Part shown: one piece after another, positions 43,104-61,100 of the stretch | Layout: each line of letters begins with the position of its first letter | Numbering within the stretch: position 1 is the first letter of the stretch | Source of the DNA: Sphingobacteriaceae bacterium | GTDB taxonomy: Bacteria > Bacteroidota > Bacteroidia > UBA7662 | NCBI GenBank assembly: GCA_030682795.1 | Contig: JAUXNJ010000010.1 | Span: 62,001 to 126,000 of the forward strand | Direction of reading: 5' to 3' | DNA length: 64,000 nucleotides | Translations under genes and position numbers: made by a program | The notes under the pieces: generated by a model | Databases searched by the model: none | The model's input: the letters and a program-made list of their open reading frames with translations, nothing else | Told to the model about the DNA's origin: nothing

Positions 43104-43465
43104 AAGACCGCTCGCCTTCGGCTCGCTTTACAGAACGCTCGCCTTCGGCTCGCTTTACAGACCGCTCACCTTTGGTTCGCTGACAGACCGCTCGCCGGTG
43201 GGCTCGCTGACAGACCACTCGCTTCGCTCGTTCAGAGACAGAGCAGGCCCTGGCGTTGGTGTATGGAATCAGAACTTGATTTTTTGGAGAACGCGAGCCT
43301 TCGGCTCGCTGTACAGACCGCCCTTCGACAGGCTCAGGGACTGCCTTTGACAGGCTCAGGGACCACTCTTCGACAAGCTCAGGGACCCCCTTCGACTTGG
43401 CTCAGGGACCACTCTTCGACTGGGCTCAGGGACCGCTCGCTTCGCGGGTTCAGAGATAGAGCGGA
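43104..43465. repeat. Degenerate short tandem-repeat cluster
   Basis: About five copies of a 27-bp unit like AGACCGCTCGCCTTCGGCTC (43104-43235), a single diverged copy near 43290, then about six copies of a 22-27 bp unit that all contain GACAGGCTCAGGGA or a variant (43315-43465). The two unit types share the start ACCGC/ACCAC. Each holds a small palindrome (GCCTTCGGC or CTTCGAC). The copies differ in single bases, so they are old or spreading. It fills most of the 505-bp gap between the 45-codon gene and the motor cluster; no promoter can be picked out. Confidence 0.8.
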
Positions 43466-43523
43466 CGCTGGCAGCAGGAGAGCGAGGGATTTTCGATTTC
43501 TGATTTAATTATCCAGTGCCCCG

Positions 43524-43553
43524 GCCCTTCAGCCCAGTCGAAGGGCGGTCTAC
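43524..43553 (-). repeat. Inverted copy of the repeat unit at the end of the motor cluster
   Basis: The reverse complement reads AGACCGCCCTTCGACTGGGC, the same sequence as the forward unit at about 43314-43337. With the forward copies it would form an inverted pair 200 bp apart. It reaches the stop codon of the 262-residue gene. Confidence 0.7.
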
Positions 43554-44338
43554 ACCGCCGCCGTAAGGCGGATTTTTTGCTCAGTAAAGAACCAATGAAA
43601 GGCCAAACCTTCGTTGTAGCGAAACAAAGCCGCGCTGAGCTGCTCAGCAAATTTGGTCATGGTTTGTAGCACCAATTGTCCATATTCCTGCTGTTCGGCG
43701 CCCTGCATGCTGAATTGTTGCAGCGCAGTTAAACTCTGTACCATGAGCAACGCATTGGCACTGTCGAGCAGCTGCCGGGCTTCCCAGCTTACTACTTTGT
43801 GCCGACTGAACTGCTGCAGCAGGTTTTTGAGATGTTCTTGTGTTTCTTGGATGAGATGCAAATTGACTTTCAAAGTCTTAAACAAATGTTCAAAGCCTTC
43901 CCTCTTGGTTTCGGCGGGTAAACGTTTGCATAAGCGCTGACAGGCCAGAATTACCGGCTCAGACATCAATTGCTGCCACAATTCAGGAATCAAAGGATTG
44001 CGAATCTGAGGCAATTTGGGCTTGAAAATGGCCTGTAATAGACCATTCATAGCTACCGCTGGGGCCGCATTCGGTGCATATAACAGGCGGTCTTCTTCCA
44101 GGATTACCAAATTACTGGCATTCAAAACCCCCGTGCTCACCAATTGCAGTTTACGCTCACTGCCCAGTCCTACTAAATCGGCAATATCGATGAGGTACAG
44201 GGCATGGCCACTCACCATCACATCGCCTGGCTCATAGGCTATCAACTGCAACTGCTCGCCGAAAACCGACTGTAGTTCGGTTGCCCAGCGCTTGCTGTTG
44301 CCAATCAAGGCGATGCTATGTGTCAGAACGGCTTCCAT
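43550..44338 (-). CDS. Unknown protein, last gene of the motor/pilus operon
   Basis: 262 residues from the ATG at 44338, one base after the motB stop codon. No signal peptide or TM. The N-terminal 100 residues look like an alpha/beta fold (THSIALIGNSKRWATELQSV, LYLIDIADLVGLGS, LVILEEDRLLY), somewhat like a receiver domain but without the acidic pocket; residues 110-260 are helical (HLIQETQEHLKNLLQQFSRH, LVLQTMTKFAEQLSAALFRY). It was not recognised. Being cytosolic and next to the stator genes, a regulator or rotor-interacting protein is a guess only. Confidence 0.75.
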   Translation of the reverse strand: MEAVLTHSIALIGNSKRWATELQSVFGEQLQLIAYEPGDVMVSGHALYLIDIADLVGLGSERKLQLVSTGVLNASNLVILEEDRLLYAPNAAPAVAMNGLLQAIFKPKLPQIRNPLIPELWQQLMSEPVILACQRLCKRLPAETKREGFEHLFKTLKVNLHLIQETQEHLKNLLQQFSRHKVVSWEARQLLDSANALLMVQSLTALQQFSMQGAEQQEYGQLVLQTMTKFAEQLSAALFRYNEGLAFHWFFTEQKIRLTAAV

Positions 44339-44339
44339 C

Positions 44340-45044
44340 TCAGTTGTAATACAGGCGGATGACAATGCGTCGGTTTAAATTTTGGTTCTCAGGTATGTAA
44401 TTGCCCGCGGCGTCCTTCTCTTCCACATCGGGAAAAGTATCGGCATAGCCCGAGGCTTTGAGCTTGGTAGCAGGCACCCCGGCCTCTAAAAACGAACGCA
44501 CAATGCCAGCGGCACGGGCGGCCGAAAGTTGCCAGTTATCGGTAAATTTGACGGTACGGATGGGCGCGCTGTCGGTATGCCCCTCCACATCGAGCTGAAA
44601 ATCCTGGCGCTCCAAAGTTGCCAGTCGCGCCACTACCCGCTCAATGATGGCCCGCCCTTCGGGCAAAAGCTCGGCGCTTCCGCTGGCGTACAGACTGCTG
44701 CCACTGAATTTCATGCGGATTTCGTAGGCTCCGCGATCGAGTCGCATTACCCCAGAGGCCAACTCTTCGGCCATGCTCACTTTCAGGTCTTCTTCGAGGT
44801 ATTCAATTGGGAAAAAGACAGGCTGGGCAGGATTGTCAAATTTTTCCTCCGTATCCACCGCATCGGGCGGCAAAGACCCCATCATGATGGCAATGTCCTG
44901 ATCGGCCATACTCGCCAAAATGATAAAAAAGGCCAGCAGGATCGTCATGGTATCCATAAAAGTGGTTTGCCACTCCGAACCCTCTGAAGAATTTTCCTCA
45001 GAATCGTCGCTGCTCGCTTTTTTCGGTAGTCTTAGTGTGCTCAT
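44340..45044 (-). CDS. motB: MotB-type stator protein with OmpA peptidoglycan-binding domain
   Basis: 234 residues. Cytoplasmic N-terminus, one TM helix (residues about 29-46) that has the proton-channel Asp at position 31 (TFMDTMTILLAFF), then a periplasmic linker and a C-terminal OmpA/MotB domain with LDVEGHTDSAPI and NWQLSAARAAGIV, the peptidoglycan-binding helix pattern NxxLSxxRAxxV. All features needed for a proton-driven stator are present. It overlaps motA by one base. TolR/ExbD lack the OmpA domain, so the MotB label is preferred. Zorya's ZorB is an alternative relative but has no flagellar rotor partner. Confidence 0.87.
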   Translation of the reverse strand: MSTLRLPKKASSDDSEENSSEGSEWQTTFMDTMTILLAFFIILASMADQDIAIMMGSLPPDAVDTEEKFDNPAQPVFFPIEYLEEDLKVSMAEELASGVMRLDRGAYEIRMKFSGSSLYASGSAELLPEGRAIIERVVARLATLERQDFQLDVEGHTDSAPIRTVKFTDNWQLSAARAAGIVRSFLEAGVPATKLKASGYADTFPDVEEKDAAGNYIPENQNLNRRIVIRLYYN

Positions 45045-45841
45045 TAATTCGACATGCTTGAAACGCCTTCGCGGGCTTGCAACATCGACGACAATTGGTC
45101 GATGATGTAAAGCTCAGGACGGCCTTCCATGGTGAGTAATACAGCTTCTAGTTCTATTTCGCGCTTCACTTCATCGTGTTGCACGGTTAGGGTGAGTTTT
45201 TTGCCAATCGGCTGCCACAAAAACTGGGTAAAGAGCAAACCGTAAAAGGTAGTCATGAGGGCCAAAGCCAATCCGTTGGCCAAGCCACTTGCATTTTCAA
45301 AATTGCTAAGCATCACAATTAACCCCATCAGGGTACCTAACATGCCGTAGGCGGGAGAGGCAGTTGCCAATACGCCAAACACCTTTACCGGAGTCATTTC
45401 GGCTTGTTTCATGGTGTGTATTTTGTGGGTGCCCAGCACTCGAATTTCATCGATGCCGTAATTGGTCGACAATAAATCGGCGATGTACAAACGAAAGCCC
45501 TTGGAGCCGCCCTCCATCATTTTGGCGATGGTGGCCTGCTTGTTAATGCGCAGCTCACGCACCATGGCCATCACATTTTCAATGAGCTCTTCTTCTTCCG
45601 CCAATTTGCTTTTGAGCGAAAGGGTAGGCTTAAATTCCAACATGGCCTTGTTTACCGCTGTAGCGGGAAAGGAAGAGTAGGCCTGAAAAAAGCTACCTCC
45701 TAAAATCACCATCATGCTGGGAATGTTAAGTAAGCCTTGGATGAATTCGATGCGATAATACCCAAAAGAATCTAGTGCCCCAATCATGAAAAATATCATG
45801 GTGAGGGTCATGCCTATATAACTCGATAAACTTCTTTTCAT
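45044..45841 (-). CDS. motA: MotA-type stator protein
   Basis: 265 residues with four TM helices: about 8-25 (MTLTMIFFMIGAL), 40-57, 155-180 (TASPAYGMLGTLMGLIVML) and 190-212. Pro163 and Pro211 stand at the places of the two conserved prolines of E. coli MotA. The cytoplasmic loop between TM2 and TM3 is large and charged (residues 60-150), as needed for contact with FliG. ASPAYGMLGTLMG is a MotA signature, while TolQ/ExbB have a different pattern. It overlaps motB by 1 base and starts 15 bp after the TPR lipoprotein. Confidence 0.9.
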   Translation of the reverse strand: MKRSLSSYIGMTLTMIFFMIGALDSFGYYRIEFIQGLLNIPSMMVILGGSFFQAYSSFPATAVNKAMLEFKPTLSLKSKLAEEEELIENVMAMVRELRINKQATIAKMMEGGSKGFRLYIADLLSTNYGIDEIRVLGTHKIHTMKQAEMTPVKVFGVLATASPAYGMLGTLMGLIVMLSNFENASGLANGLALALMTTFYGLLFTQFLWQPIGKKLTLTVQHDEVKREIELEAVLLTMEGRPELYIIDQLSSMLQAREGVSSMSN

Positions 45842-45856: not shown

Positions 45857-46357
45857 TTATTTGCTTTTGGGTGCTTTTGGTTTTGGCGTAGGAGTGGTGC
45901 CGCCCCGCTGCGGTAGTTCGATGGCCCGTTCATCAAAGCGGGGGTCTAACCGCCGGGCCTCGAGCCAACAGCTGTCGGCCGAGGCCGAGCGCCCCTGTAC
46001 CTCGTAAACGCTGCCGAGCAACATGAGGGCATCGGCGGTAGGGTACCATTTGAGCGTTTGCTGGAGCAGCTTTTCGGCTTCGGTGTAGCGACCGTCGTAG
46101 GCGGCTTGCTGTGCCCTTACCATGTTGTTGATGATGAGGTTGGTTAAAAACATATACTGCTCGGCTTTCAACTTCTTGACATCTTCGGTCAAGGAATCGG
46201 GCTTGGCCTGTTGTGGAATCGAATCCTTCTTGGCCTCCTCTTTCAAGTTTTCCTTTCGGTCTTTGCCCGCCGTGCGAATGCGCATGCCTTTGCGGTTGCA
46301 GCTCTCGAAGATGCCCGCCAAAACGGCCAAAATCAATATCAATTTGAGATAGCGCAT
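45857..46357 (-). CDS. TPR lipoprotein of the motor cluster
   Basis: 166 residues. Lipoprotein-like signal with Cys 20 in IFESC, a charged linker (residues 25-65), then a TPR-like module (AAYDGRYTEAEKLLQQTL, YEVQGRSASADSCWLEARRL) and a Pro/Lys-rich tail. The module is visibly related to two repeats in the C-terminus of the usher, so it probably contacts the same partner. Located in the periplasm, perhaps bridging stator/ring and outer membrane. 8 bp downstream of the FliF-FliG fusion. Confidence 0.78.
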   Translation of the reverse strand: MRYLKLILILAVLAGIFESCNRKGMRIRTAGKDRKENLKEEAKKDSIPQQAKPDSLTEDVKKLKAEQYMFLTNLIINNMVRAQQAAYDGRYTEAEKLLQQTLKWYPTADALMLLGSVYEVQGRSASADSCWLEARRLDPRFDERAIELPQRGGTTPTPKPKAPKSK

Positions 46358-46365
46358 GCGATATA

Positions 46366-48399
46366 TTAACTGGCCACTTCAAGGGCTGGGGTGTTTTGTT
46401 TGCGTTGACGCACACGGGACAAAAATTCACGCCGCTCTTTTTCGGTTTTGCTGGGGTTGATGTTGCCCTGTCCCAACAAATCTTTGATAAGCAATTGCTC
46501 CCTGGCAGCCCGGAAGGGCAATAAGCGTTCTTGCAAGGCTGTATCGCCAACGATGAGCGCCGCCACACTGTCGCTGTCGAGCCCACCCATGGCTTGCTGC
46601 AACACTTCGTCGGCAATTTCGGGGATGTCGCTCCACAGGGTGATGTGCTCGCGCACATAGGCGAACAACTCGCGGTTGCTATCACGCAGCTTGTCGAGCA
46701 TCTCCTCTTGCTGACTGATGCTTTGTTGCTCGATGGTGGCCAGCACCTGCTTGAAGGCTTCCACGTTTTTGCCCTTGCTCTCGCGAATTTCTTTGAGTTT
46801 TTTGAAGAGGTTGGTGCTCAGCTCGGCATATTCGTCGAAACGAATGGCGGCCAAAGAGGGGTAAGACGACAGGATGTCGGAGGCTTTTTCTACCCCAAAC
46901 ATATTCATGAGCACACTCTTGCGGGCGGCCGATAAACCTTCTAACACCATCAAGCAGTTGATGGCTGGCTCCTCTTCCAACAAGGTTACAATTTCGTCGT
47001 CTTTGAGGTAGATCACGAATGGGAAATTACCAAACTGCCGCTGGTTGCGCATGGCCAATACCAATTCGTCGAGGGCACGCTTTTGGGCGGCACTGTCGAG
47101 GTGCTCAGGACTCCACCTGCGCCAGGCCATGTCGACCGCATGTGCGGTTTTGGGCTCCAGCAACTCGGTAAGCATATCGAGGAAGTGGTTGCCGTAAGGG
47201 TACAGCAACATCACCATTTTTTGGATGCCGTTGGCGCCCTGCTCGCGCGACCAACGCTCAAAGGTAAAGGCCAAATTGGTACGGTCGTTAATCAACCAGT
47301 CCATCAACGGATCACTCGCCCGCAAATCGGCCTGCTGCTGGTCCTGATGCATCACCATTTCGGTTTGCATTTGGATAGGCGCCATGCCTTGCATCATCTG
47401 TCCGTTCATTTGCCCGTTGTAGCCCGCGCCTTCGCCCATGCCTGAACCCATACTTTCGCTGCTTTTGTTGCCAGCAACTGCTGCTGCCAAGGCTTCAGCT
47501 CCTTTTTTCTGCCGCCATACCAAGCCAATGAAGATGAGCAAACCTACTAAGCCTAAGCCAATGCCGAGGATCATGCTCAGGTTGTTGCCTAAATCGTTGA
47601 TCATGCTCATCATGGCACCCTGACTCTCGGGGTTCTGTTCTAAGCGTGCGTTCACGGTAACGGAGTTGGTACCAGGCGTTTTATCTTCCTTGGGGAAGTT
47701 GGTAGTGGTAAGCACAATGTTGTCGCCCCTGCGTGCATCTAAACGCAGCGTATTGCTGATGAGGTTGCGGTAAAATTCGGCATTGCTCGGACTAACAGAG
47801 GAATCTACTGCCAAAAACACCCGGATGCGATCGATGCTCGGACCGTTGTTTACATTGCCTCCCATGGCACCCATGCCACCACCTCCACCCGCAGATGGAT
47901 TGTTGGAAGGCGCCACATCGGCTTCTTGGTCGTTGGCATCAACCGTTACTGGGGCCCTTAAACGTGAGCTGAAGAAGGGTAAGGCAGGTAGCATCTCAAG
48001 GGTTTTGTCTTCCTCGGTAAAGTCGTTGTTTGATGGGGTGCCTTTTACAGTGGCATCGATGTTGGCTTTGCCGCGACCGCTGCCGCCAGTACTCCCAACT
48101 GGCTGTGCATTGGTAACTCTGCCGGTAACTTCTACGCTCAGGTGAAAGAGGGTAGGACTCAGGTAACGACCCAACAAGCCCTGGAGCTGGTTGGAGATTA
48201 CAGACTCGTAGCTGAACCGCTCGTAGGCGCTCAGGGGCCGGGAACTGGCGGTGGCTACCGCGGCCGATTCGTCGGCGGAGCTGGTATTCGGAGCTCCATC
48301 CTGAGCCGCCACCGTGGGAATCCACAATGCGCCCAGCAGGAGCGAGCTCAATACGAGCCGCCGCCAGCTTTTAGTTAAGGGAGTATTTCTTTTGTCCAT
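46366..48399 (-). CDS. FliF-like/FliG-like fusion protein (membrane ring plus rotor)
   Basis: 677 residues. After a signal or anchor helix (about 15-32), residues 57-95 and 188-236 resemble the third ring-building motif and collar of FliF: FSYESVISNQLQGLLG, and IRVFLAVDSS with DARRGDNIVL (the RGD-V step of the family), separated by a Gly-rich insertion (96-187). A TM helix follows (273-295), then a Gly/Met-rich linker (300-360), and from about 460 to 665 the FliG middle and C-terminal domains: LKDDEIVTLLEEEP, YVREHITLWSDIPEIADEVL, and GGLDSDSVAALIVGDTALQE; the charged residues R583, D591, D597 and E598 lie on the torque-helix equivalent. FliF's first two ring motifs are absent. FliF and FliG are normally separate proteins; here they are one. 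Overlaps the usher stop by 29 bp. Confidence 0.82.
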   Translation of the reverse strand: MDKRNTPLTKSWRRLVLSSLLLGALWIPTVAAQDGAPNTSSADESAAVATASSRPLSAYERFSYESVISNQLQGLLGRYLSPTLFHLSVEVTGRVTNAQPVGSTGGSGRGKANIDATVKGTPSNNDFTEEDKTLEMLPALPFFSSRLRAPVTVDANDQEADVAPSNNPSAGGGGGMGAMGGNVNNGPSIDRIRVFLAVDSSVSPSNAEFYRNLISNTLRLDARRGDNIVLTTTNFPKEDKTPGTNSVTVNARLEQNPESQGAMMSMINDLGNNLSMILGIGLGLVGLLIFIGLVWRQKKGAEALAAAVAGNKSSESMGSGMGEGAGYNGQMNGQMMQGMAPIQMQTEMVMHQDQQQADLRASDPLMDWLINDRTNLAFTFERWSREQGANGIQKMVMLLYPYGNHFLDMLTELLEPKTAHAVDMAWRRWSPEHLDSAAQKRALDELVLAMRNQRQFGNFPFVIYLKDDEIVTLLEEEPAINCLMVLEGLSAARKSVLMNMFGVEKASDILSSYPSLAAIRFDEYAELSTNLFKKLKEIRESKGKNVEAFKQVLATIEQQSISQQEEMLDKLRDSNRELFAYVREHITLWSDIPEIADEVLQQAMGGLDSDSVAALIVGDTALQERLLPFRAAREQLLIKDLLGQGNINPSKTEKERREFLSRVRQRKQNTPALEVAS

Positions 48400-51300
48400 T
48401 CGTTGAGGTCCTAGCTACAGGTTTGATGAGTCTATCGAGTATTTGTGTTTCTGGTAGGGCAATGAGTGGATTGCGCTCCCGGGCTTCTGCCCAAATGCGC
48501 CAGGCCTCTTCTTGCCTACCGGTGATGTATAAAATCGAACCTTTCAGCGCCAGGGCATGATCGGTTACAAAAATGCTGAGGGAGGTGTCGATCATGGCGT
48601 CGGCTTCTACATAGCGCCGGCGGTAGAACAACTCTTGGGCCTGAACAAAGGCCGAAACTGCGGCATTGAGCGCGCCACCCAGCTCTGCTTCAAAGTTTTC
48701 CATGAGTTCGAGCGAGAAGCTGTACTCAATGGTGTCGAAGGCTGGTGGTGGAATTACCGGTACATTGCGGTTGGCCAACAAATCGCTGTTTTGAAGCGGC
48801 TTGAAGCCTACCTGGTTGGTATCGGGTACTTCTATAAAGGGATTGCGGTAGCGGGCTTCGCTCCACAAATCACGGGCGGTTTTTTTGTCGCCGAGCAAAT
48901 AGGTAATCGAGCCTTTGAGCGCCAAGCCAAAATCGGTAGGGAAGCCCGTGAGTGAGCTATCTACCATGGCCAGGGCATTGCTGTAGTTGGCGCGGTAAAA
49001 GTGCTCCTGTGCTTCGGTGAAGCTGGTAACGGTTTGTTTAAGGCGCTCACCGAGGAGGTATTCGAGTTGGGCGAGGGTCAATGGCTCGTCCTCTTTTGGC
49101 TTGGTGGTATCGGCTGGTGTAGGTATCAAGCGAATTTCCAAGGTATCAATCCAGTGTCCATCTGGTAAAGGCAAGATGGTGAATTTGAGGGTATCAGGGC
49201 GCTGCACCACATTCATGAATTTGAGCTGCATGGAGTCAACCAATAGGGTATAATTGCCAGGGATAAGACCGTGCGCGTAAAAACTGCCATCAGCATAGGT
49301 CCGAATGGTGGTTGCTCCTTCATGATCACCATTGCGAGCTAACTTTAAGCGTAAACCAGGCTGTGGGTCTAACATACCTGCTCCCCGATCGCGATACACC
49401 ATGCCTTCAATGGTTCCGGTACGATACAAAGGAATATCAATTAGTTTGAATCGGTTTGGGTCGGCCACGAAGGAGAATTTTTCAACCAGTGGAGCAAGTG
49501 TTGCATCTGGGAGTGCACTTTGGTCAACGGTTAATCGGTAGGTCCAGTAGCTTTGTAGTTGGGTGATGCGCAGGAGGCCGTCTTTGCCTTGCAACATGGT
49601 GGCTGATTGGTCTAGACGAACAGCTCGGGCAGGTACAATTTCCTCGCCTTTATCGAACTTACCATTGGCGTTGTCATCTATAAACATTCGGACAGTTACA
49701 CCTGCACGACCTACTTGATCTCGATTGGTGGCGAGGATCATACCATTCCGCAAGTCTGCCCCAAAAGAGCCGCTGAAGTTTTGTGTAAAATTAGGTTCGG
49801 CATAGGGGCCCTTTTGGCGAACGGATGTCTGTGTGCTGCTTCTGAACGCATTAAAGTCATAAAGAAGTGCAACTTGGATTAGATTGGCCTTGTTTGCAAA
49901 ATCACGATCAAAACCAAGTGTCAAGCGGCCTTTTTTAAATACGGTTTGTGAAAATTGAAAACTACCAAGGGCTGTTGCGTCTAGTTGTTTCATGTCGTGA
50001 CGTAATTGTACCCTAAAGAACATACCACGGACGAAAACCGGAACACCTGGTGTCCTTGGAATCGTGTAGGTGAATGCGCCTGTAATCAGCCTTTGTGGAT
50101 TGATTACGCGGTTTGGCCTAATCAATAACTCCTCTCTGTAGTTTAGTCGAGTAACTATTGGTCCAAAGCGCGTGTTAAGGTCAAAATTCATTCTTCTATC
50201 CTCACCTGTATTGTACCAAAGTTGTTCAATCCCTGCCCTAAAGCCAGAAACGCGTCCAAATATGTTGAACGGTACATAATAATTTGCTGATGCTTCTCTT
50301 GAAGCTCTATTAGTTGTGAACTCAGGGTTGAATGAAACGTTCTGAAAGTCTGAAAACTGAACATTTAGTGATGTGTTGTTAGCGTAAAACACACTAGCTG
50401 TAGCTCGAACAAAAGTATTTGGTAACAAATCGATGTTAAATAAATATTGGTCAAATAAACGTATAGAGGCACTTCCATACGGGGTATATTGCACCCCTAG
50501 GCTATCAAACCGCCTATCGATTCCGGCCCTTAAGGTTATGTTGTTAGTTAATCCGTATGAGAAGCTGCCATGTCCTATAATATCGGAGCTAACGGTGTCT
50601 CTGAATATATCTTCTTGGTAACCAGCTTGTAAGGAGTAATTAAACATGCCTCTTGGCACAAAAGTAAATGGTATTTGCAATTGGCGGTCTTCCATTATTA
50701 CTTCGCCTTGAGGGGTATAAATCCTTATCCCAATACGAATTGTTCCATAGGTTAGCGGAGTTGTAAATCGGTAATAACCGAGTTCATCGGCACGAGTAAA
50801 ATCTACCAGTTGATTGCCTATGAGAAGTTCCACTTCAGAGTCAGGAACCGTAAAGCCTTCAACTGCAAATACATCAAGTACCCTTCTAGGAACGATTGGG
50901 GTGTTAGAAATTGACAACCCACGAACGCTGCCACCGTAGGGGCCTAAAACGCCAATTTGCCCTGCTGTGATATCACTGATAATGGGATTTCGTAAAGCAT
51001 CTAAACCGCCTTTGAAAACATATCTCCAACGCAATCCGTTAAACGAAAAATCACTAAAATCCTTGTTTTGGTAGCCGCTCAAATTTCCTTGAATATCCCC
51101 TCCTAAAAGTTCCATTCCGCCAATTAGGTTATAATTGAGTTGAGAATATCCTGGGGAGCTATTTATTCCAACGTTATAATCGAGCATACCCGGTGCAAAC
51201 AAGGCTCTACGTCGAGGGTGCGACATTGGAAATTCTTTTAATATGTTTTCAGGAGCTTCATTTTTTATTCGTTGGCGCACGCTTTGTCTTTTGAGTTTTT

Positions 51301-51763
51301 CTTCAACTGGTGTGAGCCGTTCTGACTTTAAACTCAACATAAGGGCATAGGCATTTACTGTGAAATCAAGTCCAAAAATATCTTTGAAAAGATCGGGCGA
51401 TAAGTATAAATCTGTTTCTCCAAGAAAAAACTGATCTGCCTTTAAAGTCAGCTTTTCTCCTTTTCGAATAAATACAAATTTGACAGGATCAATTTCCCAG
51501 CGATCAGCCTGGCTAGGATAGGTGCCTTTTAGTCCGAAGCGACTCTCGTTTCTTTCAAAAGGTATCATAAGTAAATTCAAGATTTCTCCTGCTGCAATTA
51601 AAGGCTGTTCGCCTCTAAAAGCACATGTCACGTATACTTGCCCAATTGCAGGGTAGCCAAATGTTAAAGTAACCTCATCCACCTCCTGTGCCCGCACCAC
51701 GGACAGGCCCAGCAATAACTGCAGGAATACAGAGAGGGTTATCAGGTTAACACGTGGTGTCAT
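48371..51763 (-). CDS. Outer-membrane usher-like protein with C-terminal TPR-like modules
   Basis: 1130 residues. Signal peptide (ends VVRA), a periplasmic N-domain of about 150 residues (TFGYPAIGQVYVTCAFR), the barrel start (LDYNVGINSSPGYSQLNYNL), a plug-like Ig insertion near 293-365 (EGFTVPDSEVELLIGNQLV, GIRIYTPQGEVI), then many barrel strands (FSYGLTNNITLRAGIDRRF) to about 690, and a region with FIDDNANGKFDKGEE and TIEGMVYRDRGAGML, as in alternative ushers. From about 915 two related TPR-like modules follow (FYRANYSNALAMVDSSL, and FYRRRYVEADAMIDTSL). In a classical usher the C-terminus is in the periplasm. Paired with a PapD-like chaperone next door. It would secrete and assemble the surface fibre. 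Confidence 0.78.
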   Translation of the reverse strand: MTPRVNLITLSVFLQLLLGLSVVRAQEVDEVTLTFGYPAIGQVYVTCAFRGEQPLIAAGEILNLLMIPFERNESRFGLKGTYPSQADRWEIDPVKFVFIRKGEKLTLKADQFFLGETDLYLSPDLFKDIFGLDFTVNAYALMLSLKSERLTPVEEKLKRQSVRQRIKNEAPENILKEFPMSHPRRRALFAPGMLDYNVGINSSPGYSQLNYNLIGGMELLGGDIQGNLSGYQNKDFSDFSFNGLRWRYVFKGGLDALRNPIISDITAGQIGVLGPYGGSVRGLSISNTPIVPRRVLDVFAVEGFTVPDSEVELLIGNQLVDFTRADELGYYRFTTPLTYGTIRIGIRIYTPQGEVIMEDRQLQIPFTFVPRGMFNYSLQAGYQEDIFRDTVSSDIIGHGSFSYGLTNNITLRAGIDRRFDSLGVQYTPYGSASIRLFDQYLFNIDLLPNTFVRATASVFYANNTSLNVQFSDFQNVSFNPEFTTNRASREASANYYVPFNIFGRVSGFRAGIEQLWYNTGEDRRMNFDLNTRFGPIVTRLNYREELLIRPNRVINPQRLITGAFTYTIPRTPGVPVFVRGMFFRVQLRHDMKQLDATALGSFQFSQTVFKKGRLTLGFDRDFANKANLIQVALLYDFNAFRSSTQTSVRQKGPYAEPNFTQNFSGSFGADLRNGMILATNRDQVGRAGVTVRMFIDDNANGKFDKGEEIVPARAVRLDQSATMLQGKDGLLRITQLQSYWTYRLTVDQSALPDATLAPLVEKFSFVADPNRFKLIDIPLYRTGTIEGMVYRDRGAGMLDPQPGLRLKLARNGDHEGATTIRTYADGSFYAHGLIPGNYTLLVDSMQLKFMNVVQRPDTLKFTILPLPDGHWIDTLEIRLIPTPADTTKPKEDEPLTLAQLEYLLGERLKQTVTSFTEAQEHFYRANYSNALAMVDSSLTGFPTDFGLALKGSITYLLGDKKTARDLWSEARYRNPFIEVPDTNQVGFKPLQNSDLLANRNVPVIPPPAFDTIEYSFSLELMENFEAELGGALNAAVSAFVQAQELFYRRRYVEADAMIDTSLSIFVTDHALALKGSILYITGRQEEAWRIWAEARERNPLIALPETQILDRLIKPVARTSTNGQKKYSLN

Positions 51764-51791: not shown

Positions 51792-52616
51792 TTAATCAAT
51801 GATTAGTGTTGTTTTATAATTATAGGGTTTAGCTTGTACTAGGTCGTCTGATGGAATATCACTTCTGTTTGTCTCGAATTCATATTCTAAAGCATATCTG
51901 CCAGGCTTGAGTGATTCTTTCGAGAAAAAACTAAATCTTCGTTTTCCACTAAAATAAAGGGCAGCAGGTTGGGTTGCCTCACCGATAACGATACCAGATG
52001 GATTTTTTAAGGTAATTTTTACTTTCCCTAGATAAGGGGAGTTTCCTGTTGTTTTATAATGGGTATCAAGCACGATTAGGTTACTATCCACTTTGTGGGT
52101 GACTTTTTCAATGCTTACACCTGTTGTTACTTCTCCATTCTTGAAAAATGCAACAATAACTTGTTCAAAGCGCAGATTAATCCGGGTCGAAATAGCACCT
52201 TCTGACGCCGTTTCACCTATATCAGCTACTTGGCCAGAACTACCAACTTTAATTCTTGTAAAGTAGGTTCCTGGATTTGTATTTTTAGGTATGCGGGCTT
52301 GCAATCTTACAATCTGTTGTTGGTTAGGTGGTAAAATGAATGAGCGCGGAAACGCTTTCATCATATTATTTAATCCCCAAATCTTGGCATTTACACTATC
52401 ATCATAAATCATGACCAATACACCGTTGTCATCTTGAGCAGAATAACCAAACTGAAAGTTTATAGTTATTTCTTGGGGAACAGCTGAGTTATTGGTTACG
52501 TACAAATTCCCAATTCCATTTTTATCTAAATAAACGGCTGTGGGAGCAAGCGAAAGTTGTGCTTTCACTCCATAAAATGGAAGCGTGAATAGCATCAACA
52601 ATAGTAACTTTTTCAT
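51792..52616 (-). CDS. Pilus-type periplasmic chaperone (PapD-like)
   Basis: 274 residues. Signal peptide (ends GVKAQ). Two Ig-like parts: the first has LSLAPTAVYLDKNGIGNLYV, FPRSFILPPNQQQIVRL and PGTYFTRIKVGSS, the pattern of a chaperone G1 and F1 edge strand; the second begins near LIVLDTHYKTTGNSPYLGKV and ends with a Gly/Tyr-rich strand (PGRYALEYEF). Periplasmic chaperones cap pilin subunits by donor-strand complementation. It is 28 bp ahead of the usher and 65 bp after the pilin gene. Subclass (archaic/alternative) not assigned. Confidence 0.75.
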   Translation of the reverse strand: MKKLLLLMLFTLPFYGVKAQLSLAPTAVYLDKNGIGNLYVTNNSAVPQEITINFQFGYSAQDDNGVLVMIYDDSVNAKIWGLNNMMKAFPRSFILPPNQQQIVRLQARIPKNTNPGTYFTRIKVGSSGQVADIGETASEGAISTRINLRFEQVIVAFFKNGEVTTGVSIEKVTHKVDSNLIVLDTHYKTTGNSPYLGKVKITLKNPSGIVIGEATQPAALYFSGKRRFSFFSKESLKPGRYALEYEFETNRSDIPSDDLVQAKPYNYKTTLIID

Positions 52617-52681: not shown

Positions 52682-53314
52682 TTAGATACCGTAGATGATG
52701 TTAAAAGCCATGCCTCCAATAAAGGTTCCTTGGGGGCCGTTTGATGGTATAACTGATCGAGTCCCTCTAAGGTATAAGTAGCCTCCAATGAACAATGTTG
52801 TTCTTTGATCTACACCAGAGGTTGTAATTAATCCTACTGGGCCTTCACCATTTCCAGATGGTCCTGTGACATCTGTAATTGGATTAGCAATTGCTTGTGC
52901 AGAAAGTAGAACTGAGTTAGTTCTATTCGCAGTATTTGCTTCTTGCTCACCATGGATAACTGAGATCACCGGTACAAATGAAATTGATGTGTCGTTTGTT
53001 GTTCTAGTTAAAACAACTGTAGAGTCAAACGTGATACGGATAGGCTCTTCTTGTGAAGCGTCAACAACCAGCCTGCCCACGGCGGCACTAAAACCAATAT
53101 TAGTTGAAGATGCCTGTGACTGTGGATTCAAAAAGGTTTGAGTTCCCGCAGCGACAGTTCCAAACCGGATGGAGTCATTCTGAGTTATTGTAATTTGCTT
53201 TAAAATTCTGGCATTAGCACCAACAGAACCTTGCGTACCTAATTGTGCCTTTGCTGTTGTGCCTACACCTACAAATAGGGCGGCAACGAGCAGTGATTTG
53301 AAAATTGTTTTCAT
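52682..53314 (-). CDS. DUF4402-type secreted pilin-like protein (likely major subunit)
   Basis: 210 residues. Signal peptide (ends TTAKAQ), then ARILKQITITQNDSIRFGTV, the DUF4402 hallmark, and a C-terminal LFIGGYLYLRGTRS and GTFIGGMAFNIIY, the closing strand pattern. Pilin-like proteins of this family complete their Ig fold by donor strand exchange in other chaperone-usher loci (family knowledge). It is next to the chaperone. The long A-rich leader suggests strong expression and hence the main subunit. Confidence 0.72.
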   Translation of the reverse strand: MKTIFKSLLVAALFVGVGTTAKAQLGTQGSVGANARILKQITITQNDSIRFGTVAAGTQTFLNPQSQASSTNIGFSAAVGRLVVDASQEEPIRITFDSTVVLTRTTNDTSISFVPVISVIHGEQEANTANRTNSVLLSAQAIANPITDVTGPSGNGEGPVGLITTSGVDQRTTLFIGGYLYLRGTRSVIPSNGPQGTFIGGMAFNIIYGI

Positions 53315-53533: not shown

Positions 53534-54025
53534 TTATAAATATATTATCGTTAAAGTACCACTGGCGTTCGCAGGCATGCCCAGCCAAGAGCTGAGGGTA
53601 GTAAGATCGCCAGGTATGTTTTTAATCATGATTGGTTCATTATACATTCGTAATTCGTTCATTCCAGAATTAAGCTGCATAGCTGCCGCAAAATTAGTAG
53701 TACCATCGTTGAGGTAAAGCATAGGTTTAAAACCACCTGGTCTGCGCACATTAGGTGTAAATTGAACGGCGAAGTTGATGTTTTCTTTGGCCCGTAGTTC
53801 TATCCAACGCGTTCCTGGGTTTAGGCTACTGCGGTACCCAAAGCCCCCCTTTTCTTTAACAGGTGGTTCTAAAATTTGCGGCGGTACAGGGTTAGGATTT
53901 AATTCTACTCCTGCAGGGATATTCAATGTAAGGCGAATAAATTGGGCTTGCCCAACAAAGCAGCAAAGCATAAGGACTACAAAGAAAGTCCCAGAAAGCA
54001 ATATGGCTTTAAAAGTTGTTTTCAT
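53534..54025 (-). CDS. Small secreted pilin-like protein of the cluster
   Basis: 163 residues. Signal peptide (ends CCFVGQAQ) and a beta-rich body (RLTLNIPAGVELNPNPVPPQ, RWIELRAKENINFAVQFTP) ending SGTLTIIYL, the C-terminal strand style of pilin-like subunits. It overlaps the preceding gene by 17 bp. No family was recognised; a minor or tip subunit is inferred from the place. Confidence 0.65.
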   Translation of the reverse strand: MKTTFKAILLSGTFFVVLMLCCFVGQAQFIRLTLNIPAGVELNPNPVPPQILEPPVKEKGGFGYRSSLNPGTRWIELRAKENINFAVQFTPNVRRPGGFKPMLYLNDGTTNFAAAMQLNSGMNELRMYNEPIMIKNIPGDLTTLSSWLGMPANASGTLTIIYL

Positions 54026-54620
54026 TGTAGTTTATAAATAAATTGATTTCACCAGTGTAATTGCCTGATCGGATGTTGTTTGGAATTGGCCCTAAGGAGC
54101 CGTAGATATAAAAGTATGCCTTTCCACGTTGACGTATAAATCCTTGGTGATCGGGCGTAGGCGGAGGTAAGGGGGGGCCTCCGGCGGTCCTTCTGCGTAC
54201 TGGTAAGGTTACGGTTCGGAAGGCAGATGGAACTTGGACTGCAGCTAAACGTCGATCTATATCGCTTAATTCGCCAGTATTGTTATAAGCGAAATTAAGG
54301 TTGAAAGGCACTGTGATACCTGTATCAATCCCCAAATATAAGCCAGGTGTCCAGCTGAACTCTGCTGTTAAATCATACTCAATCGGGGCATCAATTTCAA
54401 TCACGATGGTTGGATTATCATTGATGCCTATGACTACAGGCGTTGGGTCTCCGACCACGATCACACGCTGCTGATCATTAAAGTTGAGCCCTAAAGGATT
54501 ATTGACGATGGTAAGCGTTATGGCCTCATCTTTTACATGCGCGCCAAAATTAATACGCTGCCCCAGAACTGATGCATTCAGGGAAAGAGAGAGGAGAGCT
54601 ATGGCAGTAAGTTTTTTCAT
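54009..54620 (-). CDS. Small secreted pilin-like protein of the cluster (2)
   Basis: 203 residues. Signal peptide (ends NASVLGQ), then INFGAHVKDEAITLTIV and a C-terminal strand pattern IRSGNYTGEINLFINYN, like DUF4402 and other pilin subunits (GxYxGxxxxxVxY). There is a Pro-rich loop near residue 150. Starts at the stop codon of the upstream gene with one base shared. Confidence 0.65.
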   Translation of the reverse strand: MKKLTAIALLSLSLNASVLGQRINFGAHVKDEAITLTIVNNPLGLNFNDQQRVIVVGDPTPVVIGINDNPTIVIEIDAPIEYDLTAEFSWTPGLYLGIDTGITVPFNLNFAYNNTGELSDIDRRLAAVQVPSAFRTVTLPVRRRTAGGPPLPPPTPDHQGFIRQRGKAYFYIYGSLGPIPNNIRSGNYTGEINLFINYNENNF

Positions 54621-55138
54621 CAGTTCGCCTCCATTTCAATGATGAATTCTGAAATGTACCCACCTGGAGTAGCACGAGCTACATCTATCACTGCTCCTAA
54701 CCAAATGTAGTAATAGCCTTCCTTGCTTAAACGCACATTGGCTTCGCCAATATCAAGTAGCACACTGGCTGCTTGATTGTCGCTTTCAAAGCCGCTTATA
54801 CGATAATTGGCTCTTACAATACCTCCACTCCCTCCTGTTTCTACCAATGTTTCTTGGGATAGATAAGTGATTCGTACCATGGCACCTGCTCTCCCTGCAA
54901 TGCGCATTAAACCCGCATATGGACTACTAATTGGCGATACTGTTATGGTTCCATCTATGATAGCAGGTGCATTTAAATCTACATCTCTCATAGTTGAGAG
55001 CCCAAGGTTATCAATAATGGTAGCTGTTGCTGAGACACGGACAGATCTCGTATGTACGACCTGCGACTGCTCTTGTGCATTACTGTACCTAGCTTCCCCA
55101 AGCACCAACAAAATCAATATGGCCAACCACTTCCTCAT
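54620..55138 (-). CDS. Small secreted DUF4402-like pilin protein of the cluster (3)
   Basis: 172 residues from the ATG at 55138, which overlaps the giant gene stop (ATGA). A longer start would read through the giant gene's C-terminus. Signal peptide (MRKWLAILILLVLGEARYSNA), then VRVSATATIIDNLGL, APAIIDGTITVSP and a C-terminal TPGGYISEFIIEMEAN: the DUF4402-like pattern. Its fusion to the adhesin gene by overlap indicates coordinated production of fibre and adhesin. Confidence 0.68.
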   Translation of the reverse strand: MRKWLAILILLVLGEARYSNAQEQSQVVHTRSVRVSATATIIDNLGLSTMRDVDLNAPAIIDGTITVSPISSPYAGLMRIAGRAGAMVRITYLSQETLVETGGSGGIVRANYRISGFESDNQAASVLLDIGEANVRLSKEGYYYIWLGAVIDVARATPGGYISEFIIEMEAN

Positions 55139-58100
55139 TTGATTTTCACAGCTTTTTGGGTAGACACAAAATCGGCAGTTACCAAACGAATAACATAGGT
55201 GCCCGGCGTGGCTTGGGGGGCGTTCCAAACCAGCTCGTGGGTGCCGGCCGTATACAGCTGTTGGGGCTGCCGACTCACTACACGTCCGTACATATCGCTT
55301 ACTTCTAACATGGCCATCGTTTGTTCTGGCAAATAAAAGGCCAAAGTAGTTTCTTGTTCAAAAGGATTGGGCATGGGCGGATACAGATAAGGGTGATCGG
55401 GTCTATATACGAGCTCACTTCCGTCGTGGTTTGGTATGATTACAATGGTAAAGGGCCGCTGCGGTTCGCGCTGTTGGCGGAATACGGGATTTTCGGCAAT
55501 ATCGGGCTTTGCACCATGTAAAACGGCCTTTGGAGAACGAAAATCACCGTCTTCTTGACTGGTTCTAAAGGCTGGATTGGCCGGTGCCTGGTAGTTGAAT
55601 TGGTAGCTGCTGCGCTCCAACATGGGCACCACTTTTTGATTGTGGTGGTCCATAAGCGCAATGGTCCAATTGGCTGGCCAATTCTGAGCAAGATTCCAAA
55701 AAAGAGCATAATTTCCCGAAATGGGTTGTCGGTCTTTGGCAGCGGCCAGGTGCAATGGGATGGCTAATTCGTTGCTGAAGTTGTCGGGCAGGTGGTTAAT
55801 CACCAACGGTTTTTTGTGGCGGGTAGAGCTTTGGGTGTACAGCATCAACCAGCTGTCGTTGTACGATTCGAGCTGGTAGGCGTCGTACACATCGGGGCCT
55901 GTGATGCCTTGTTGGGTAAAGCTCACGTAGCTGTTGGCCTCCATGCCGGCGCCTTGTAGACTGAGGCTGATGCTGGGCGGCGCCTGTCGGCGGCTGTAAT
56001 ATCGGGCAGCGTCATCACTCTTGGCATTGTTGTTAAAAGCCAGCGAAGGATTAGCAGCATTGGCATGTACCCAAAAGGCTTGGTAAGGGGCTATGTTGCC
56101 GTCGCTCAACGAGGTGTCGATATTACCCACCGTTCCGTTCCAATAGCGATAGCCGCCTACACCGCCAAAGCTAGGATCCCATATATAAAAGGTGTTGTCG
56201 AGGTTGTTGGCGGTCCAGGCCCCCGAGCTGGCATCCCAATTTAAGGTAGATGGGGTGGGGTTGGCCAATAAATTCCAGCCAGCATCGGCCACATTTTCGT
56301 CTAAGAAGAAGGTGTTGCCCCCGGCGGTATCGGCTTGGGTGCTGAGCGCCCGTGGGGTAAAGGTGAGTTCGGGGAATACAAAGTCGCCTGTCGTAAGATT
56401 TGGTTCAAATCCGTTTGAAGTAAGCACCACTGGCAAAGTATCAGCATAATTGCCGCCACCTGTTACGCGAGCTGGGTAGCCGGCCCCATCAAATACGTAT
56501 ACAAAATGACCGCGACCTTGTACGGTACTATCGCTGGCATTGGCAGGTTTTCGCCAGCTTTGCAGGGTGGTGCCGGTATCGGTTTCGGCAAACCACAGCA
56601 CATTGGGCTGCAGCGAGTCGAACTTGGCACCGGGGTAGCCTTGGGTTTCGAGACTGTCGAGGAAGTCGGCGTAGGTGGTTTTTACCGGACTGCCCAGCTG
56701 GCGCCAGCCTTTCACGCCACTGAGGCGCTGTCGCGACTCGAGTCGTGGCAGGCTGCTGCTCAAATTTACATAACGGGCGTAAGGCTCCACCACAATTTTG
56801 CTGTTGGTGCCGCGCGTTTCGGTTTCGCTGCCGTTGTTGAGTTTGAAAAGTGGTCCTGGCGCCCCCGCTGTACTGCTGTCGATGGTTAACACACTACCAT
56901 TGGTGAGTATGAGTTTACCACCGTTGGCCAGTACAAAGCTGTTTTCGGCCGGCGTAACCGAGCGGTTGAGGCTAGGCTGATTCGGCCGCAGGGGGATGAG
57001 GATGCGGGAGGTGTCGCGGGGGGTGAGGCCGGTGTTCCAGTTGGCAGCGGTGTACCAATTGCGGGGGTTGCCGCTGGCGCCGCCAATCCACACATCATAC
57101 AAAAAGCCATCGAGGCCCCTGCTGATGAGTCCAATGCTGCTATCGCCTCGGCCCTGGCCGCCATCGTACACCACATACACATCAAAAGGCGCGCTTACGG
57201 CCGTGTCGAGGGTGTGGGTGATGCTGCCGCCGGGTTCCAGGCTGAGTTCATAGCCTGTGCCTTCGCGGTTAATGCTGAGGTTGTTAAATACGGCTACGCC
57301 GCCGGTGAAAGGCTGGTTGCCTCCGTTCAAACTAGCACCAGAGGGATTGGTGTAAAAGTCGAGGATGGCTTGCTCGGCCCCGAAAGGCACCAGGCGGTTG
57401 TCGGTTGAGAGGATGCGGGCGCTCAAACTGAAAGGCTCGTTGGCAATTTGGTCGCCGGGTTGGGTGTCGAACACCAATTTGCTCGGCACGGCTTTCGCCC
57501 CATCGAGGAATACTGTATCGCTCGAAGCGCGCACATCGCCCCGACCAGCTCCCCCAAAATAACTTTGACCTAAAATTTTGGCAGTGCCAAAGGGGGCGCC
57601 AAACAAACTGAAGATGTATTCGGCGGTATCTGTGCCGCTAAGTTCTGCTTCGCTGATCACTACGCGCTTGTTTTCACCCACGCTCGGCGAAAGGAAGCCA
57701 TAAAATACGGTGTCGAGCACCACATTGGGGAAGCTGGTATCGAGTCCCACCAAGGTAATGTTGTTGGCGCTTACCCCGCTGGCGGTGATGTTGGTGGTGC
57801 CGTCGTACAGCTTGTCGAAGGCCACAAAGCTGCCATCGAGTTGCAGTACAAATTTGCCATCGAGGTTGGTTACGCGGGGGTTATTGGCGTCAAATCCGTC
57901 GCCCTTACCGCCGTTGTAGTAGTTTTCGATGATGTCGAAGGCCAAAGAGGTGTCGGCAATGCTGCCTACAGCTGCACGCATAAAATAGGTGCCGCCATTG
58001 GGGATGGAGACGATGGGGAAGATGGCCACGCCACTTGTTTCGGTTACCTGGAAAGTGCCATTGATCACGCCAAACGGCAGCAAACTCAGGGTAACGGTAT

Positions 58101-61100
58101 TGGTGTCGGTCCACATCCGGTTGTCGTTGGAGTCGAATATGCTCACCTCAATGGGCGGAAAAAAGATGGTGTTTACCGCGGTACTGTAGGGCGGGTTGTT
58201 TACCAGGATGCGGAAGGGAGGGCCTGGGATGAAGTACACCCGGGCGGTGCCCTGGAAAGGGTCGTCGGCGCCAAGTTGGGTAACGGCGAAGTAGTTGATG
58301 GAGTCGGCCACGGTGGAGCTCACCGCAAATTGGGCTACCCCAAAGGAGTTGGAGAAGCCGAAGTTTTGCGCAACGATGGTGGAGACTTTGCCGGAGTCTT
58401 GGGTGAGACTTACCAATTGGTTGGTGATGAAGTTGGTGTCGATGTCGCTCAGCACCACCGTTACGAATACCGAGTCTACCCCATTGGCGATGGCGGTATC
58501 CACGCTAAATACCACACTAGAGAGGCTGGGTTCGATGGGGCCTGGTGTCACGCTGATGTTGTCGGATTCAAGCGCCGGTGTTACCAGCGAGTCTACAATA
58601 AAGGCGATGCGGTACACACTGTCGGCCCTGCCGCCGATGCGCAGACTGTCGAAGGTGGCACGGTCGTTTACCATCAATTCAACCGAGTCGCCTCTTAAAC
58701 GACCGCGATTGGTGGCGTCGGTTAAGCTGAGGAAGGCCCGCACTGGTGAGGTGTTTTGGGCGTTATTAATGAGGATACCTGTGGAGTCGCGCAGCTGTAC
58801 TACGGGTGGCGAAGCAAATAGCAAGCTTGAACGCCCACCAATGGGCTGGGTAAGGAATTCGAGATAGCCTTTGAGACCGAGGCGACCGGTGCTACCAGCG
58901 GTAAAGCGGTTATTGTCTTGGAATTGGGCGGTGGTGGAACTGGTGCTGCCGTAAATGCGGGGCGACTGCCGAACGCCGTCGAAAAACAGACTTAAAGCAA
59001 AGGCGGTTTGGGTGCCGGGATTAAACCTGCCCAGGTTGTTGATGTTGAGAACCCTAAATGTTTGTGGGTTGGTGGCTACGCGCACCTCACCGCTATCAAT
59101 GTTTACAGGGCCCACCAGGGTATTGGTGCCACTAAATTCGATGCTGCCGCTGCCCAATTGGTTGAGGGTAGTGGAGGCAATGGTCACGAGGGAACTGCCA
59201 GCGGCTTGTCCGAGTTGGCCCGGTCCGCGGTGGTTGATGGTAATGTTTGCCCCGGTAGGACTGTAGTTAGGCCATTCTACCCGAGCATTTAAGCTGGTAT
59301 TGTAATTGTAGGTGCGGTTGGCGCTATTTTGTAAGAGCGAAGCAATGCCCAAACTACCAATGGCAGCTCCGGTAATGTTGGCACCTCGGCTTACATTGAG
59401 CACATAGGTATTGTCGACAATCGGCCAGTTTAAAATGTTAATGCTATGGGTTTGGCTGGTGGCGGCAGCATTGGCACGGTCTACCACAATCTCTAAATTA
59501 GGAGCCCGTAAAAAAACATCGGTATTGTTAAAGGTGGTATTGGCATCAGCCGCTAAAATGAGTTGCCCCCCATAGAAGTTAAAATCGGCAGTGGCACTGG
59601 TGCCCATAGAGTTGGCATTGCCCAAGCGGATGCTGCCGGCGTACATATCGGTAACAGAGGTACGCGTGCTGTTACCGGTGATGCTGAATTCACCACCGCC
59701 ATATTTGCGGATAGCGCGACTTGTGCCCGCAAAGCCGGTGGTTTGCAACAAAGCCAGGGTATCTACATTGATGTTGGTGGTGGTTGGATGCGTAAGTGTT
59801 CCAAAAGCCACGCCGGCAATGCCAGAGGTCACATTGCTGCCCACCAATACCCGCATGCTGTCAACTGGCGAAAGGGCGCTGTAATTACCCAAGGTATGGG
59901 TAACTCCTGCACCAGCAGCAGTACGATCGCTGATAAAGCTTGGATTCACAGTGGCAATCACTGCGTTGTTAAAAGCAATAGGCGTATTGTTGCTCAAATT
60001 CAAAACGCCACCGCTCATATAAACCGTGGTACCGCTACCAAGTGCATTGCCGTTGGCCGTAGCCACCACCAAGCCGCTACTCAGGGTAAGCCGCTGGGTC
60101 ATGGTATTGTTCTGGCTCAAGGTAAGCGTGCCCGTGCCGCTGTAGGTAATGGCGCTTTGGGTAGCCAAAGTGGGTTGAATGTTGAAGGCCCCCGTTTGTA
60201 CAATGGTGCCATTGCCATTCATTACCACAGGCAAGGTGCCTCCTGTTAAGGCGCCTAAACTGAGCTGGGTAAGTCCACCGCCGCTAGGATTATTCACTGT
60301 ATAGGTAGGCGATACGCTATGTGTAACCGCTCCAAAGGTTACGCCCGCTGTGCCGCTGTTTACATTGGCACCACCGCTGATGGTCAATGTGGTGGCATTC
60401 AGGGTTAGGGCGCCCAAAGTGTGTGTTGCGCCAGCGCCCGTGGTATTGTTATCGCTGATGATTTCGGCATTGGCATTCACCGTAACCGCTTGTGCAAAAT
60501 TGAGACCTACTCCCGCCGTATTACTCAAGCGCAGTACAGGTGTTGTACCTGCCAAGGTTACACTGCCATTGCCCATAGCGGTGGTGCTGTTGCGCGCATG
60601 CAAGGTACCGCCGTTTACCGTAATGCCGCCTGTAAAGGTGTTGTTGCCCTCCAGCACCTGGGTCATGCTGCCCGTTTTGGTAAGGCCCACCGTGCCTGAA
60701 CCGTTTTGGATAATGCCCGAAAAAGCACGGTCGGTGGTGCCATTGATGGCAATGATAACATCAAATGGTTGAGAGTTTGTAAGCAAGCCTGGACCGCCCA
60801 AGCCAGCACAAATCAATCCTTTACCGTTTAAGTCGATGGTATTGCCCGTATTGGTGAGCAAAGCACCCGTCATTTCAAACGGCCGTGGCTCGTTCGATGA
60901 CAAGCGCAGGGTGCCCGTGCCAAAATATTGGAGGTTGGCAAAAGGCCCCACACTTGGGCGGGTAATCACCTGCGCCACACCACTCGCTTTGCGGAAGTTG
61001 ACCGTAGAAGTGGCGGGTACAAAACTGCCATAGTTGAGCCAGTCACCGTGTACATCAATCACGCTGCTACCACTCATGGTTACGGTGGCCGCTGGGAAAA

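Follow-up and report, generated by a model that had tools for sequence, protein, structure and literature searches.

Organisation of the operon

The window, a stretch of 64,000 nucleotides from the genome of a Sphingobacteriaceae bacterium, contains a run of genes on the minus strand in which stator and rotor genes lie next to a gene with an usher fold and to genes for secreted proteins. The features are listed below.

43550-44338, minus strand: gene after motB, 262 aa, probably not part of the core
44340-45044, minus strand: motB, 234 aa; one transmembrane (TM) helix with the channel residue Asp31, OmpA-type wall-binding domain
45044-45841, minus strand: motA, 265 aa; both channel prolines present
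45857-46357, minus strand: TPR lipoprotein of motor loci (Pfam TPR_2; lipobox read by eye)
46366-48399, minus strand: putative FliF/FliG-type rotor, 677 aa (Pfam FliG_C, profile against PDB, model fold, hydropathy)
48371-51763, minus strand: usher with FimD/PapC fold and C-terminal TPR tail, residues ~886-1130 (predicted model compared with FimD)
51792-52616, minus strand: probable periplasmic pilus chaperone (supported by its location and by a single weak match to PapD_N in a relative)
52682-53314, minus strand: pilin-like secreted protein, distant DUF4402 relative
53534-54025, minus strand: small secreted protein, conserved in the cluster of the family
54009-54620, minus strand: pilin-like secreted protein; invariant PPPTP motif, kept with usher clusters across the phylum
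54620-55228, minus strand: pilin-like secreted protein (open reading frame; true start probably inside), kept with usher clusters
55135-63996, running beyond the window, minus strand: giant secreted protein, candidate adhesin; PATR repeats, YDG domain, T9SS-like tail

The giant protein, the four small secreted proteins and the chaperone-like gene precede the usher, and all genes lie on one strand with gaps of -94 to 219 bases. The usher gene overlaps the downstream rotor gene by 29 bases, and motB and motA have one base in common. We term three of the four small secreted proteins pilin-like; they and the chaperone are weakly recognised by sequence. A single one of 12 members of the chaperone family matches PapD_N, and weakly (E 7e-4), while the chaperone profile returned nothing useful from the PDB sequences (best E 0.72). 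DUF4402 matches, likewise weak, were obtained for 2 of 5 members of the pilin-like family (best E 0.002), and the T9SS sorting tail of the giant protein scores below the cut-off (E 0.004).

The 262-aa gene that follows motB was considered as a core part and rejected, since the related operon of genome G399 contains no match to it. Its first 100 residues resemble, by eye, a degenerate response-regulator receiver, and we did not find it in the loci searched. Downstream of the operon there is also a short repeat stretch (43263-43508), which reads as LRQAQG-type in translation.

The stator pair

The preliminary description had placed a MotA/MotB pair at 44340-45841 and regarded it as a flagellar-type stator rather than TolQR/ExbBD; both genes are found exactly there. 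MotB matches Pfam MotB_plug (E 1e-8) and OmpA (E 3e-12) and, in the PDB, MotB/PomB (E 2e-18). MotA matches Pfam MotA_ExbB (E 1.6e-15) and PDB PomA (E 2e-18), and it scores 76-86 bits with the PomA/MotA/MotP models of NCBIfam, compared to 11-14 bits with TolQ and ExbB2. In a MotA tree of 69 rows (62 of them different), 48 MotA-type rows, comprising those of the window and its relatives, flagellar MotA from this phylum and E. coli, are split from 21 ExbB/TolQ-type rows with a support of 100/100. In this tree the usher-linked motors group with the type-B motors (100/100); the E. coli rows sit on long branches, and their exact placement is unsure. Membership of MotA in TolQ/ExbB is thus ruled out by the tree and the NCBIfam scores, which bears out the earlier assignment, and judged by sequence the pair is a stator of the flagellar branch.

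The residues named in the preliminary description are in place. Asp31 of MotB corresponds to the channel Asp32 of E. coli, and all 35 rows of the alignment, E. coli included, have Asp at this position; the same holds for D158, which aligns with E. coli D197 of the OmpA domain. Pro163 and Pro211 of MotA (P173 and P222 of E. coli) are invariant across the aligned rows. The statement that all residues for torque are present holds for the channel Asp, the prolines and R90 (R98 in the window) and fails at E98, which is replaced by A106; in E. coli MotA, R90 and E98 are the two charged residues that face the rotor.

A Zorya identity was rejected as well: the ZorA2 match amounts to 13 bits over positions 54-137 of 590, and MotA, with 265 aa, has no long cytoplasmic tail. 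The ZorB model gives 76 bits with MotB of the window, on the OmpA part.

A putative rotor in one polypeptide

The pair is not a lone stator, as had been thought: a rotor gene shares its operon, and the other half of the operon is the chaperone-usher pilus cluster, with which the motor is linked through the domains they have in common. This gene, which the preliminary description had missed, is by sequence and predicted fold a flagellar-type rotor in one polypeptide. Its product begins with an N-terminal signal or hydrophobic stretch, followed by an RBM3-like part (57-236), a TM segment (~270-298) and FliG N, M and C domains (~387-671). Pfam FliG_C is matched above the cut-off (E 6.4e-7) and YscJ_FliF_C weakly (E 0.09, residues 185-235), and a profile built from 18 rotor rows finds FliG in the PDB with E 5.5e-27. 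Hydropathy shows the N-terminal stretch and the single TM segment, from which the RBM3 part is expected to be periplasmic and the FliG part cytoplasmic. The protein does not comprise a full FliF with RBM1, RBM2 and RBM3; the RBM3-like part alone follows the N-terminal hydrophobic stretch.

The AlphaFold model of the rotor is of modest confidence (pLDDT 67.5, pTM 0.31), which does not extend to the arrangement of the domains. Residues 57-236 superimpose on the FliF RBM3 domain (8z5v) with Z 11.8 and an rmsd of 1.7 over 94 residues, and residues 458-671 on the M and C domains of FliG (3usw) with Z 12.8 and an rmsd of 8.2. The comparison with the FliG of 8wiw gives Z 13.5 and an rmsd of 14.5, which is high because the domains are arranged differently, and that with FliG_C bound to MotAB (8ucs_H) gives Z 10.1 and an rmsd of 2.4 over 85 residues. 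The FliG N domain is matched weakly (5tdy, E 0.003; 5wuj, Z 6.9).

Two FliG positions, R281 (the stator-facing arginine) and D288, are kept as R633 and D640, while Ile, Leu and Asn take the places of K264, D289 and R297. The position of EHPQ, the FliM-binding motif, reads EEPA. The classical torque charges of MotA and FliG are therefore only partly kept, and the torque interface has diverged. An LPxLPF-type motif at residues ~136-141 is nearly invariant; it lies inside an insertion of the RBM3-like part, at the position of the FliF beta-collar, and is a candidate contact site.

The usher and its TPR tail

The predicted model of the usher (pLDDT 76.6) matches FimD with a Foldseek E of 5.9e-28, a Z of 21.8 and an rmsd of 6.3 over 502 residues, the usher fold spanning residues ~182 to 880. 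The Pfam usher models do not match the gene at 48371-51763, and a profile of 16 usher rows found no ushers among the PDB sequences, so that the usher is recognised by fold only. At the C-terminus the model shows two TPR-like helical blocks (897-973 and 1014-1119). The lipoprotein of the window is 36% identical to this tail over 67 residues (E 1e-10). Moreover, outside ushers a hidden Markov model (HMM) of the tail matched 45 open reading frames of the loci collected, every one of them a motor lipoprotein; three are copies of the one in the window, and several of the loci are duplicates.

Scanning genome contigs with the usher alignment yielded 80 loci with 81 usher rows, 66 of which were testable, meaning a complete usher and at least 800 bases downstream. 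Both the tail and an adjoining rotor are present in 20 of these rows and neither in 46; there was no row with a tail and no rotor, and none with a rotor and no tail. The other 15 rows were set aside as the usher was cut, its core incomplete or the downstream sequence shorter than 800 bases. They include L063, which has the TPR tail and whose contig stops at the usher, and L095 and L126, with weak tail scores and contigs that also stop there. The tail HMM had been trained on 13 motor-linked ushers, excluding the copies of the window (L001, L034 and L037); judged by identical MotA rows, 7 of the 20 positive loci are identical in sequence to training genomes and 13 are not. Taken together, the matches of the tail HMM and the strict pairing indicate that the usher bears a paralogue of one of the motor's components, and does so only alongside the motor.

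Among the 20 motor loci, two offer enough space for motAB but show no adjoining pair, namely L064, where motAB is located elsewhere, and L100. The latter, in which a TPR-tailed usher precedes a rotor shortened to 224 aa and motAB is missing, gives the impression of a copy in decay.

In Balneolaceae, many ushers that have no motor carry SPOR domains at their end, which Pfam detects in both of those tested (L101 and L123). In the motor loci of Balneolaceae the SPOR tail instead sits on MotB; MotB of the window has none. Of 55 usher tails, 27 are recognised by an HMM of these MotB tails (L090-L122; best E 1.9e-48), and not one of the 27 is motor-linked. The anchor to the wall may have moved from a static usher to the stator once the usher became driven. 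The motor-less ushers with SPOR tails (L101, L108, L123 and others) appear to be anchored to peptidoglycan.

Distribution and arrangement of the motor loci

FliG_C was found in 104 of 395 genomes of the phylum. By frame length (585-704 aa), 32 rows in 23 genomes are fused rotors, and 15 of these genomes show no stand-alone FliG. A search of 395 genomes of the class with the rotor protein of the window itself found six, all in its own family.

Twenty of the 32 fused-rotor rows were taken for locus analysis, and all 20 have MotA and MotB as neighbours. The window and nine of the 20, all from other families (L054-L062), show the order usher, FliFG, TPR lipoprotein, MotA, MotB, an order also found in Balneolota, Ignavibacteriota and other Bacteroidota. 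A second motor type, seen at eight loci (L043-L048, L051 and L053), consists of the rotor, an extra protein, a TPR lipoprotein, MotA and MotB, with no usher nearby. The extra protein has 357-392 aa and, by eye, a secreted N-terminal and a barrel-like C-terminal part; that of L043 has no match in Pfam. At the remaining three loci (L049, L050 and L052) MotA and MotB precede the rotor, and these loci stand apart in the MotA and FliG trees. The FliG tree splits the fusions from flagellar FliG at just 95/74, which does not establish a single origin of the fusion. Two of its rows, L015 and L027, have absurd branch lengths, probably from a wrong reading frame; they were retained and no conclusion is built on them.

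Within the family of the window the full usher is patchy, being found in 8 of 17 genomes. All eight usher-bearing genomes have the rotor, including G396 (L064/L189/L190) and G408 (L106/L191), where G396 and L064, and G408 and L106, are treated as the same records. Motor-type MotA is likewise present in all eight, in G403 as a partial gene at a contig end. This check of MotA covered the eight usher-bearing genomes and G395, a genome of the same genus as the window that is devoid of usher, rotor and MotA alike. In G396, also of that genus, motA and motB are found on another contig, 60% and 57% identical to those of the window, and the rotor and lipoprotein genes remain beside the usher. Tandem-repeat-like stretches occur in G396 after the lipoprotein gene (L190:983-2826) and around the moved motAB (L198:2923-4281), and may be tied to the rearrangement. 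Finally, MotB of G406 (L182:3538-4098) has 186 aa and lacks the beginning of the wall-binding domain, which its close relative L106 retains, reflecting either a real deletion or an assembly fault.

Flagellar genes and GldLM in the source genome

The source genome, which is 100% complete by estimate, was searched for a flagellum encoded elsewhere, and this possibility was rejected: it contains no match to FlhA (PF00771), which was present in 1 of 40 genomes searched, to the FliM/FliN C-terminal domain (PF01052) or to flagellin (PF00669). GldL and GldM adjoin each other on contig 15. The preliminary description of an operon without a flagellum is therefore correct as far as export apparatus and filament are concerned, which were not found, but it overlooked the FliF/FliG-type rotor within the operon. 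Its suggestion of a second rotary system beside GldLM holds at the gene level.

A possible motor-driven pilus

The presence of rotor and stator in one operon with a pilus-building outer-membrane machine suggests a mechanically driven pilus. We consider it fairly probable that the operon encodes a non-flagellar, ion-driven motor that is mechanically coupled to a chaperone-usher pilus. MotA and MotB, in a ratio of about 5:2 by homology, would form a stator held in the wall by the OmpA domain of MotB, and ion flow through it would push on a FliF-FliG ring assembled in the inner membrane. As the FliF-type RBM3 ring turned, its periplasmic face, made up of RBM3 and the conserved insertion, might engage the TPR modules of the lipoprotein and of the homologous usher tail. 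Force from the inner membrane would pass via the TPRs to the outer-membrane usher and its fibre, and the predicted pilus would be moved by rotation, swivelling or tension. In favour of this proposal are the protein families, the predicted folds of rotor and usher, the channel residues retained in the stator, the recurring gene order, the strict pairing of tail and motor, the SPOR tails of Balneolaceae, the joint retention within the family and the lack of any flagellar trace in the genome; ring assembly, ion flow, contact through the TPRs, rotation and the pilus itself are inferred. Against a driven pilus speak the weak recognition of chaperone and pilins, the missing torque charges, the modest confidence of the rotor model, the training of the tail HMM on motor-linked ushers, the two motor loci that have no adjoining motAB and the patchy presence in the family; no usher is known to rotate.

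The same data, up to the usher, would fit a coupled motor that powers translocation, assembly or pulling-in of a fibre or surface adhesin and does not move a completed pilus, or that drags usher complexes along for gliding. AglRQS and GldLM are thought to drag complexes along the envelope in gliding, and the giant surface protein with its T9SS-like tail, as well as GldLM in the genome, fit a gliding lifestyle. Yet the rotor is a ring protein of the flagellar kind and 46 of the 66 testable ushers have no adjoining motor, so that assembly alone seems not to need one, and we regard this explanation as rather unlikely, if worth keeping in mind. It is improbable, in our view, that the complex is a wall-anchored, ion-coupled load sensor on the pilus, acting through stator remodelling or an ion leak. 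Such a role would agree with the load response that is a property of flagellar stators and with the absence of FliM/FliN, the flagellar switching route, but there is little reason why a sensor should possess a complete FliG C-terminal domain with the stator-facing arginine retained.

We give almost no credence to the view that MotA/MotB and the FliG-like gene are what is left of a decayed flagellum or stand beside a pilus operon by chance. The patchy presence in the family fits it, and one article mentions rotor proteins in some non-motile species and offers remnants as one reason (PMC12199754). The frames, however, are intact and the gene order is kept across separate phyla, the channel residues are invariant, the motor co-occurs strictly with the usher tail, and motAB is retained even when it has moved away, as in G396. 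The driven pilus may be one case of something broader. We hold it to be almost as likely as not that a portable, non-flagellar rotor-stator module, made up of the fused RBM3/FliG protein, the TPR lipoprotein, MotA and MotB, has been recruited by several outer-membrane machines across Bacteroidota and allied phyla, among them a driven, possibly rotating chaperone-usher pilus with a TPR-tailed usher, and unnamed machines with other proteins.

Relation to known systems

Every part belongs to a known family, and the machine is not a flagellum, as four of its defining features, namely a full FliF, FliM/FliN, FlhA and flagellin, were looked for and not found. It has in common with the flagellar motor the stator branch, the sequence and fold of FliG, the RBM3 fold of FliF and the stator-facing arginine of FliG. 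It differs in that FliF is reduced to RBM3 and fused with FliG, EHPQ is lost and the motor is linked to an usher, with FliM/FliN, export gate and flagellin not found in the genome. The usher fold is that of chaperone-usher pili, and the weakly recognised chaperone-like and pilin-like genes upstream would be in keeping with them, whereas the TPR tail followed by rotor and stator sets the locus apart; no chaperone-usher system is known to draw its energy from a motor in the inner membrane. GldLM, from the same phylum, is also an ion-driven rotary unit of the inner membrane that acts on outer-membrane machinery, but it forms a separate locus in the source genome, and one article says that it resembles MotAB without being homologous (PMC13104615). 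TolQR/ExbBD belong to the same MotA_ExbB superfamily and are separated in the tree (100/100). Zorya ZorAB is likewise a MotAB-type pair, whereas MotA of the window reaches only 13 bits with ZorA and its operon holds a rotor and an usher. A search of open-access PubMed Central, with preprints and most subscription journals outside its scope, did not retrieve a description of the system.

One carrier, Balneola sp. EhC07 (L097), is not labelled as a metagenome assembly, and bench tests therefore look possible. If the proposed coupling is true, a flagellar-type rotor and stator would be at work outside the flagellum, and a chaperone-usher pilus would be driven from the inner membrane. Finally, a rotor of RBM3 and FliG that has neither switch ring nor export gate bears on the origin or the re-use of the flagellar motor.
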